Source: Buchnera aphidicola (Myzocallis carpini) (lineage in GTDB: Bacteria > Pseudomonadota > Gammaproteobacteria > Enterobacterales > Enterobacteriaceae). Taken from it: DNA of 64,000 bases. The stretch spans positions 124,392 through 188,391 of the forward strand of contig NZ_OZ060376.1 of NCBI RefSeq assembly GCF_964059025.1. Direction: 5' to 3'. Position numbers and translations under genes: made by a program. Numbering within the stretch: the stretch's first letter is position 1; the number at the start of each line of letters is the position of its first letter. The notes beneath the pieces were generated by a model that searched no databases, was not told where the DNA came from, and saw nothing but the letters and a program-made list of their open reading frames with translations. Below are positions 36,683 to 40,058 of this stretch, piece by piece.

Positions 36683-37471
36683 ATGTATCACGGTACTCAT
36701 GTTATAAAATTTGCACTAGGTGTAGAATATGATGGTAGTTATTATCATGGATGGCAAGAACAAAAATCAGGTATTGCAAGTATTCAAGAAGAAGTGGAAA
36801 AAGCAATTTCTATTATTGCTAACCATAAAATAAAAGTATTTTGTGCAGGAAGAACAGATTCTAAAGTCCATAGCTTAGGACAAGTAATACATTTTTATAC
36901 TACTGCTATTCGTAAGAATATTTCTTGGATACTTGGTATTAATAGTTATTTACCGAATAGTATTTCTATACAATGGATTAGAAAAGTATCTCAATTATTT
37001 CACGCAAGATATAGTGCAGTATCACGTTGTTATAGATATATTATTTATAATAATAAATTTCGATCTCCTATTTATTATAATAAAACAACACATATTCATC
37101 ATAATTTAAATGTAGAAAATATGTATAAAGCAAGTCAATTGATTCTTGGAGAACATGATTTTACTTCATTTAGATCTAGTACATGTCAAGCTTGTACAAC
37201 ATATAGAAAAATTGTATATATTAATGTTTCTAAATTTCATAATTTTGTTTTTATTGATATTAAAGCAAATTCTTTTTTACAATATATGGTACGAAATATT
37301 GTAGGATGTTTAATTGAAATTGGAAAAATGAAAAAAAATTTTGAATGGATAAAATATGTTTTAGAAAAAAAAAATCGTTTATTTTGTGCACCTACTGCTA
37401 TTGCAAATGGTTTGTATTTATTTACAATCAATTATCCTAGTTATTTTAATATACCATCTATTTATTTTTAG
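36683..37471 (+). CDS. truA: tRNA pseudouridine(38-40) synthase
   Basis: TruA makes pseudouridine at positions 38-40 of the tRNA anticodon arm. The 262-residue product (270 in E. coli) has the catalytic Asp59 in [11 protein letters not shown], the [17 protein letters not shown] block, ENDFTSFR-like EHDFTSFRS and the MVRNIVG block. The usual AGRTDAGVH is AGRTDSKVH here, but the RTD core is kept. An AGGAT ribosome-binding site precedes the ATG. Confidence 0.97.
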
Positions 37472-37569
37472 AATATTTGATATTGTTATAATTATATTAA
37501 ATTTATATGTACATAATATATTTTATTTTAAATACTATTTTATATCTTAATTAATAATACGAGAATTCT

Positions 37570-40058
37570 ATGGATGCCAATGTTTTTGATTTTTTTTTAA
37601 AAAATAATAATAAAATATTTAATCATGTAAAAAATACTCTTAATATTATTAATAATTTAGAACGTTCTTTTCAAAAGCTATCAGATAAAGAATTAAAAAA
37701 AAAACTATTTTTTTTAAAAAAAGTTTAAAATATGGAAAGTCATTAGAAGAATTATTACCTGAAGCATTTGCAACTGTTCGAGAAGCTAGTAAAAGAGTAT
37801 TCAATATGCGGCATTTTGATGTTCAGATATTAGGTGGAATTTTTTTATATAAAAATTATATTACAGAAATGAAAACAGGCGAAGGAAAAACTTTAACAGC
37901 TACTTTACCTGCATACTTATATGCATTAAAAGAACGTGGTGTACATATAATTACCATGAATGAATATTTAGCAACACGGGATGCGAAAAAAAATAAACAA
38001 TTATTTGAATTTCTTGGTTTAACTGTGGGTCTTAATATTTCTGGTCTTTCTCTTGAATTAAAAAAAAAAGCATATTTTTCTGACATTACTTATGGTACAA
38101 ATAGTGAATTTTGTTTTGATTATTTACGAGATAATATGATTTTTCATACAAAACATCGTGTTCAAAGAGATTTATATTATGCTTTACTTGATGAAGTTGA
38201 TTCTATTTTAATTGATGAAGCACGAACGCCATTAATTATTTCTGGTGTATTATATGAAAATACTAATATTTATAACACGATTAATAACTTAATTAAATAT
38301 TTTCCTAAAACGGTTGGATATGATGCGCAATTTGTAAAAAATTCTGGAGACTATGTTATAGATTGGAAATCTAAACAAATTATTTTAACGGATCAAGGTT
38401 TAATTCGAATTGAAAAATTACTTGTTAAAAATAAATTAATTACTACACCTTCTTCTTTGTATTTAGTAAATAATATTATCTTGATTAAATATTTTATTTC
38501 TGCTTTACGTGCACATATTTTTTTTAAAAAAGATATAGATTATATTGTCAAAGAAAGAAAAATTATTATTGTTGATGAACATACTGGTCGTATGGTTCCA
38601 AATAGGAGATGGTCAGATGGATTACATCAAGCCATAGAAGCTAAAGAAAAAGTATCTATATTACATGAAACGCAAACATTAGCATCCATGACTTTACAAA
38701 ATTATTTTAAATTATATAAGTATCTTTCTGGTATGACAGGTACTGCAATGACTGAAGCATTTGAATTTAAAGTTATTTATAATATAAAAACAGTTGTGAT
38801 TCCTACTAATTGTCTCATGATACGTAAAGATCTCTCAGATGTATTATATGTTACAGAAAAAGAAAAAATTAATGCAATTGTTAAAGATATTCAAAATTGT
38901 CTGTTAAACAAAAGACCAGTATTAGTAGGAACAATATCGATTCAAAAGTCAGAAATACTTTCTCAACAATTAACGAAGTTAAATATTAAACATAATGTCT
39001 TAAATGCAAAATTTTATAAAAAAGAAGCTAAAATTATTTCTCAAGCTGGTCAGTTAAATGCTGTGACAATTTCTACTAATATGTCTGGTAGGGGAACAGA
39101 TATTGTATTGGGAGGAGAAATACAAAAAAGAGAAGATTGTACTTCTGATATTGAATATGAAAAAAAAAAAAAAATATGGAAAAAAAGACATGATTTAGTT
39201 GTTTTTTCTGGTGGTTTACATGTGATTGGTACCGAAAGACATGAATCACGACGTATTGATAATCAATTAAGGGGTAGAGCAGGAAGACAAGGAGATCCAG
39301 GTTCTTCTCGTTTTTATTTATCTATGGAAGATGTTTTAATGAAAATTTTTATCCCAAGAAATATAAAAAATATTATTCAAAAATATAATTTAACATACGG
39401 AGAACCTATACAACATAATTGGATTAATCATTTTATTTTGTATGCACAAAAAAAAATAGAAAATAATAATTTTGAAATTCGTAAACAATTATTAGAATAT
39501 GATAATATTTTAAATATTCATAGAAATATAATATATTTTTTAAGAAACTATATATTAGAGATGAAAGATATAAAAGTATTAATAAAAAATTATTTATTTA
39601 TAAATATATGTAAAATAATTCATAAAAATTGTCTAGAAAAATCTTTTTTAAAAAAAAAACAAATTTTTAGAATTATCAATATTTTAAAAGAAGATTTTCA
39701 TATAATATATCGTTTTTCTTATAATAACAGTAATTATTACTATATTTCTCCTAGAGATTTTTGTAAAAAAATTTATCAATTTATTAAATATTCTTATTGT
39801 GCTAAAGAGAGAAAAATTGGATTTTCTACAGTTAGAAAATTTGAAAAAACTATTATGTTAAGTACTTTAGATTTGTTTTGGATAGAGCATTTATCTTTTA
39901 TGGATTATTTACGAAAAGGAATACATTTTCGAGGATATGCACAAAAAGATCCTAAACAAGAATATATTAAAGAAGCATTTAATATTTTTTCTATTATGTT
40001 AGATACATTACAATATAAAGCAATTTCTAAAATAATAAAAAAAATTATGGGTTTTTAA
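37570..40058 (+). CDS. secA: Preprotein translocase ATPase SecA, frameshifted near 5' end
   Basis: SecA drives protein export through SecYEG. Translation from ATG 37570 gives a SecA-like N terminus (LSDKELKKK) for 52 codons and then hits TAA at 37726. The tract T8A7 (37708-37722) ends this frame; in the -1 frame the match continues at once (SLKYGKSLEELLPEAFATVREASKRVF) and stays open to 40058. One extra A or T would restore an 829-residue protein. Walker A (TGEGKT), LLDEVDSILIDEARTP, MTGTAMTEAFEF and GRAGRQGDPGSS are intact. The C-terminal linker and zinc-binding SecB site of E. coli (901 residues) are absent. The TTA AAA AAA G context allows -1 slippage, so a functional product is plausible. 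Confidence 0.9.

Follow-up and report, generated by a model that had tools for sequence, protein, structure and literature searches.

The secA locus and its reading frames

The window, i.e. the whole stretch of 64,000 nucleotides that was analysed, comes from the genome of Buchnera aphidicola (Myzocallis carpini), a single contig of 442,466 bases, and carries a secA gene split between two reading frames. SecA, the motor that drives protein export, is essential. The gene opens with an ATG at 37570 and is closed after 52 codons by a TAA at 37726-37728; the match to SecA resumes in the -1 frame and is stop-free to 40058, and the addition of one base at the break gives 829 codons. An earlier, sequence-only reading of the same DNA had described this arrangement (the N terminus from 37570, the stop at 37726, the continuation in the -1 frame and the 829 codons restored by one base), and all of it was confirmed. 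The features of the locus are the following:

37570..37704, + strand: SecA codons 1-45 (N-terminal part), in frame 0, with the 3' end TTA AAA AAA AAA
37695..37704, + strand: A10 slip tract, the site of the one-base break; A10 in 7/7 broken genomes
37705..37728, + strand: frame-0 tail of the unslipped message, seven codons and the TAA closing a 52-aa peptide
37704..40058, + strand: SecA codons 46-829 and stop, in the -1 frame, beginning with ACT, the last A of the tract being re-used
37806..37808, + strand: Met80, the first ATG in the SecA frame past the break
37708..37722, + strand: T8A7 tract, unconserved and rejected as the slip site
39160..39174, + strand: in-frame A15 run within secA, at least A10 in 3/7 broken genomes

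A scan for RNA families over 37200-38300 gave no match up to an E value of 1, and a viral scan gave no match. A scan of genome contigs gave three distant loci, which were left unused.

The read-through product aligns lengthwise with SecA: its residues 11-824 correspond to residues 4-820 of 2vda_A, the best-matching solved SecA chain, which we take to be that of E. coli. The 52-aa ORF alone matches the Pfam domain SecA_DEAD weakly (positions 4-46, E 0.0015, 18.3 bits for a cut-off of 24.6), and residues 1-226 of the read-through protein cover domain positions 4-222 at an E value of 3.5e-92. This domain and the alignment to a solved SecA together assign the product to the SecA ATPases. The break splits SecA_DEAD; the ORF that opens at the first ATG past it enters the domain at position 76.

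The sequence-only reading had noted a T8A7 tract at 37708-37722, which is indeed present, and had placed the break there. This placement was not borne out; the A10 tract at 37695-37704 fits both the alignment and the pattern of conservation. Read-through at A10 gives ELKKKTIFFKKSLK, and read-through at T8A7 gives ELKKKLFFLKKSLK. The A10 reading outscores the T8A7 reading by 12 to 16 BLOSUM62 units against nine of nine genus members (three in-frame and six broken; the in-frame genome G008, in which the stretch has another length, was omitted). The Thr of K-K-K-T is restored by the A10 reading only, the T8A7 reading putting a Leu in its place, and this Thr is found in all four in-frame genus members, in 2vda_A and in 16 of the 16 readable SecA stretches from other genera (30 loci were supplied, 14 of which were unmatched by the motif used). 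A10 is present in all seven broken genomes, T8A7 in the window's genome only, and T8A7 was ruled out as the slip site on the basis of the alignment scores and this absence of conservation. The secA gene of the window contains three further in-frame runs of A10 to A15 (38060-38069, 39160-39174 and 39650-39659), which are poorly conserved. Slippage at these runs may cost full-length messages, and the A15 run could be a second spot at which transcripts leave the frame.

Distribution of the break and selection around it

A comparison of secA with related Buchnera, proposed as a check in the sequence-only reading, revealed six relatives with the identical break at A10. The break is therefore present, at exactly A10, in seven of eleven genomes of the genus: G000 (the window's genome), G001, G002, G003, G006, G007 and G010. 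The gene is in frame in the remaining four, with interrupted runs in G004, G005 and G009 and an A11 run in G008. Broken and in-frame genomes alike are presumably from Buchnera of calaphidine and phyllaphidine aphids. Protein identity between the window's genome and its nearest relative does not exceed 68%. Outside the genus, SecA was a single stop-free match in all 43 comparison genomes, which belong to 26 other genera of the family (genomes of 400-600 kb, picked from 246 listed).

In a tree of 33 proteins (12,700 columns; a quick search, with two rows of odd make-up), a branch with an SH-aLRT support of 94, not starred, separates the seven broken genomes from the rest. A SecA tree built without the N-terminal part and rooted on 20 SecAs from other genera also grouped the seven (83, not starred), with G008 adjoining (94). 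From the 30 outgroup loci, 20 were used in this rooted tree, 16 in the Thr list and eight in an enlarged SecA tree, in which, with more proteins and fewer outgroups, G008 and the seven form an unresolved fork. The simplest history would start from a common ancestor of G008 and the seven with A11, one A being lost afterwards; given this fork and the unstarred supports of 94 and 83, G008 might instead have returned to A11. The G008 SecA past codon 80 is identical, in the tree columns, to the Pterocallis alni protein.

Selection was measured as base differences per codon position (1/2/3) over all pairs of the seven broken genomes. The values were.317/.211/.373 before the tract,.254/.136/.390 for the 35 codons after the tract up to Met80, and.272/.152/.363 for the following 740 codons; over the 120 bases preceding the secA start, they were.470/.472/.490. 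These patterns show that selection acts on the protein encoded on either side of the break. The coding pattern extends over the part before the break, the part from the break to Met80 and the part beyond, and all three thus look translated and used as SecA. The differences accrued after the seven lineages parted, and they therefore post-date the break if the break is ancestral. The SecA frame is free of stops from the tract onward through the domain in all seven.

The uniform length of the tract was compared with that of other A runs in gene clusters present in all seven broken genomes. Of 158 in-frame sites with at least A9 in at least one genome, only one is common to all seven, at A9. There are 79 in-frame sites with at least A10, in 42 clusters, and these are found in one genome (58 sites), two (13), three (6) or four (2), none being at least A10 in more than four of the seven. 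A run of at least A10 was paired with at least A10 in the partner genome in 86 of 654 ordered comparisons, and with a run of equal length in 34. Elsewhere in secA, A10 is reached at four other sites in at least one genome of the genus, none of them shared by more than three of the seven. Codon usage gives a product of about 0.03 for TTA in seven codons and AAA in 21, kinship being ignored; given a fixed Leu-Lys-Lys-Lys, the all-A codons are fairly likely, or at least not very improbable. If an interruption of the run would kill SecA, part of the conservation of A10 stems from the break itself.

Other frame breaks were sought in 585 cluster-genome pairs from 61 clusters around secA (secA included; 64-74 kb from each of eleven genomes) and in 279 pairs from 58 clusters elsewhere (80 kb from five genomes), so that roughly one third of the sequence was covered in five genomes and roughly one sixth in the remaining six. 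This survey recovers the secA break in 7/7, and a break common to all genomes would escape it. Among the 119 sampled gene clusters, no break other than that in secA was seen in more than one genome, so that the secA break is the sole shared one in this sample. Three genes appear broken, each in one genome. The ErpA-like gene of G005 (cluster c36, L068:7279-7428, minus strand) consists of two frames split at an A14 run, the ORF being open in the other ten genomes, and rsmI of G004 (L108:931-964) of two frames split at an A11 run, this gene being a single frame in four other sampled genomes; poly(A) breaks thus also arise singly in the genus. The ArgB-like gene of G002 (L095:1422-1425) changes frame near its 3' end, with no long A run, and it holds two Ns, making an error possible.

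Several other flags raised by the survey were rejected. Those on c1, c2, c9, c46 and c55 correspond to extensions overlapping a neighbouring gene in another frame; c35 and c57 have a one-frame match from residue 18 or 20 onward, and the weak flag on c50 a one-frame match from residue 26. Eight clusters with short ORFs were inspected and were explained by other start codons, or by true N-terminal loss in pta of G007. The thrS gene matches ThrRS only from residue 213 or 233 of 643 in G002 (L097) and G006 (L101), and over its full length in G000, G004 and G010; its N-terminal part appears to have been lost in the first two. In a cluster of ORFs about 356 residues long, the match is interrupted by a single stop in G000 (L092:2684-3757) and by none in G002 or G010.

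Proposed production of SecA from the broken gene

As six related genomes share the break, SecA is most likely produced by slipping on the A10 run. The favoured reading, to which we assign a probability of about 0.7, is that of a single ancestral loss of an A, with A10 kept ever since and full-length SecA made via slippage, RNA polymerase being the main agent. In the ancestor of the seven Buchnera lineages, an A11 run in secA would have been shortened by one A, and the tract would have stayed at A10 in all its descendants. On this tract, RNA polymerase, with an RNA-DNA hybrid made up of A:T pairs only, would slip back by one base and add an A; a fraction of the messages would thus be A11 and be read as LKKKT through codon 829, and the remaining messages would give the 52-residue peptide. 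The sequence-only reading had proposed that slippage or recoding yields functional SecA, and this part of it is well supported by the comparison (7/11 genomes, selection on both sides), although the tract to which it was assigned was the wrong one.

The gene has the features of a poly(A) frameshift, i.e. one indel in an A or T run of about nine or more bases in an otherwise open gene (here A10, open to 40058), shared by relatives without gene decay (here 7/11 genomes, with constraint on both sides). According to the consulted part of a study of Buchnera transcripts, 151 of 157 insertions were in homopolymers, exclusively of A or T, and insertions climb exponentially with run length, the hybrid being nine bases long (PMC5574713). 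A nine-base hybrid fits within ten A's. In the same study, no transcription error restoring a frame was detected (PMC5574713). For poly(A)-broken endosymbiont genes, 12-50% of corrected transcripts are quoted in the part of a review that was consulted (PMC5009743). A10 may also be a kept control element, with slippage setting the amount of SecA and repairs to A11 being selected against in all seven lineages. This idea is tentative and on the doubtful side; the in-frame G008 shows an A11 repair to be workable, and the absence of any return to A11 in the seven lineages hints at dosage control rather than a tolerated defect.

The same protein could be made by the ribosome, through -1 frameshifting on A_AAA_AAA in the tract, either alone or alongside slippage by RNA polymerase, and this is the alternative to be taken most seriously, although we consider it rather unlikely. 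The sequence-only reading had pointed to an A-AAA-AAA slippery site; the idea is sound, but it also applies to A10, as TTA AAA AAA AAA contains two overlapping in-frame heptamers of this type in all seven broken genomes, and the product of a ribosomal -1 shift has the same peptide as that of an A11 message. The slippery heptamer is thus in the zero frame, as in dnaX-type frameshifting, but its usual helpers were not found. There is no clear downstream stem-loop (the consensus of the seven sequences has an energy of -2.57 kcal/mol, with two-sided change in 2/25 pairs), and the stretch downstream of the tract in the window folds no better than shuffled sequences (z +1.47) in a fold test for stem-loops. 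Visual inspection of the 20 bases immediately 5' of the tract revealed no Shine-Dalgarno-like stretch in any of the seven sequences. Seven A's would be enough for a ribosomal shift, yet ten have been kept, which is only mildly surprising under codon usage. The absence of a clear stem-loop or Shine-Dalgarno-like helper leans towards RNA polymerase over the ribosome; polymerase slippage is thus ranked first and ribosomal frameshifting second, and both may act.

Buchnera is polyploid, and a mixture of A10 and A11 DNA among cells or genome copies, with the A11 copies supplying SecA, could be hidden as minor alleles in consensus assemblies; it is nevertheless very improbable, given that the majority length is identical in seven assemblies while other long A runs vary. 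An internal start past the break, giving a truncated SecA, or simple decay of the gene is slightly less credible still. Met80 is present in 7/7 broken genomes, the database SecA proteins of these genomes start at scattered internal codons, and an ATT codon, ATT being a rare start codon in bacteria, lies in the SecA frame right before the run in 6/7. A start at ATT would, however, leave the constraint on codons 1-45 unexplained, and a restart at Met80 would remove 34 constrained codons lying upstream; with the seven genomes pooled, the N-terminal part and these 34 codons evolve as coding sequence, the interval from the tract to Met80 contains no ATG, GTG or TTG common to the seven, and none of them has a stop in the SecA frame between the tract and the end of the domain. 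An internal start was judged unlikely on these grounds, namely the constraint before Met80 and the lack of a shared start codon. Least probable of all, to the point of being barely tenable, is a sequencing or assembly error. Long A runs are prone to error, but the identical break occurs in seven genomes, and 109 A runs of at least ten bases sit in open frames in clusters present in all seven, a set that broken genes cannot enter. Four of the broken genomes are tied to two accession series, which makes an assembly error unlikely: CP032996 and CP032999 (Therioaphis, Sarucallis), and CP134977 and CP134979 (Shivaphis, Takecallis; NovaSeq reads), as given in the available part of PMC11193766.

Known frameshifts and database records

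Programmed -1 ribosomal frameshifting is known for E. coli dnaX. In this system, as in secA, an A-rich slippery heptamer allows one gene to give two products, but secA differs in that no stem-loop or Shine-Dalgarno-like helper was found and in that its shifted product is the whole enzyme. Conserved poly(A) frameshifts were reportedly described in Blochmannia by Wernegreen and colleagues in 2010. The E. coli dnaX case is also named in PMC3017870, the consulted part of which lists dnaX and dnaG among the genes with poly(A) frameshifts in Blochmannia, dnaX being broken in two of three genomes (Williams and Wernegreen 2010, PMC3017870). The likeness is close, with a one-base indel in an A run of an otherwise open gene, shared between species, and transcriptional slippage proposed as the remedy (PMC3017870); the genus and the genes are different, and a break in 2/3 genomes there compares with one in 7/11 here. 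Poly(A) rescue in Buchnera and Blochmannia (Tamas et al. 2008, via the consulted parts of PMC5009743 and PMC3017870) resembles the present case in involving an aphid symbiont, an A run and partly corrected messages (12-50%). It differs in the genes, which in those parts are cell-wall genes and a histidine gene (PMC5009743, PMC3017870).

Among the matches listed in a search of the open-licence literature, no report of a secA frameshift in Buchnera was found; 'secA' is absent from the main texts of PMC6908640 and PMC5574713 and from the examined part of the review PMC5009743. The secA case is new and unusually deep, and it affects an essential gene, conserved poly(A) frameshifts being already known from Blochmannia. 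If seven Buchnera lineages have run secA frameshifted since their common ancestor, slippage would be a lasting feature of gene expression and not just a short stage of decay. The genus gives a natural series for measuring slippage, with A10 in seven genomes, A11 in one and interrupted runs in three.

The break also has consequences for public records. In the nine examined, the predicted SecA proteins of broken genomes and near kin are 742 to 783 residues long, with scattered starts past the break, and about 46 to 79 residues are missing from the N terminus of the entries for broken genomes. P0001, P0005, P0007, P0021, P0023 and P0069 begin at unlike internal codons, which indicates that their N-terminal part is missing. 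P0004 and P0024 are proteins of other genomes; in the tree they sit among those of the broken genomes, and the same N-terminal stretch is missing from them, which suggests two more broken cases. P0041 is identical to the G010 protein past codon 80.
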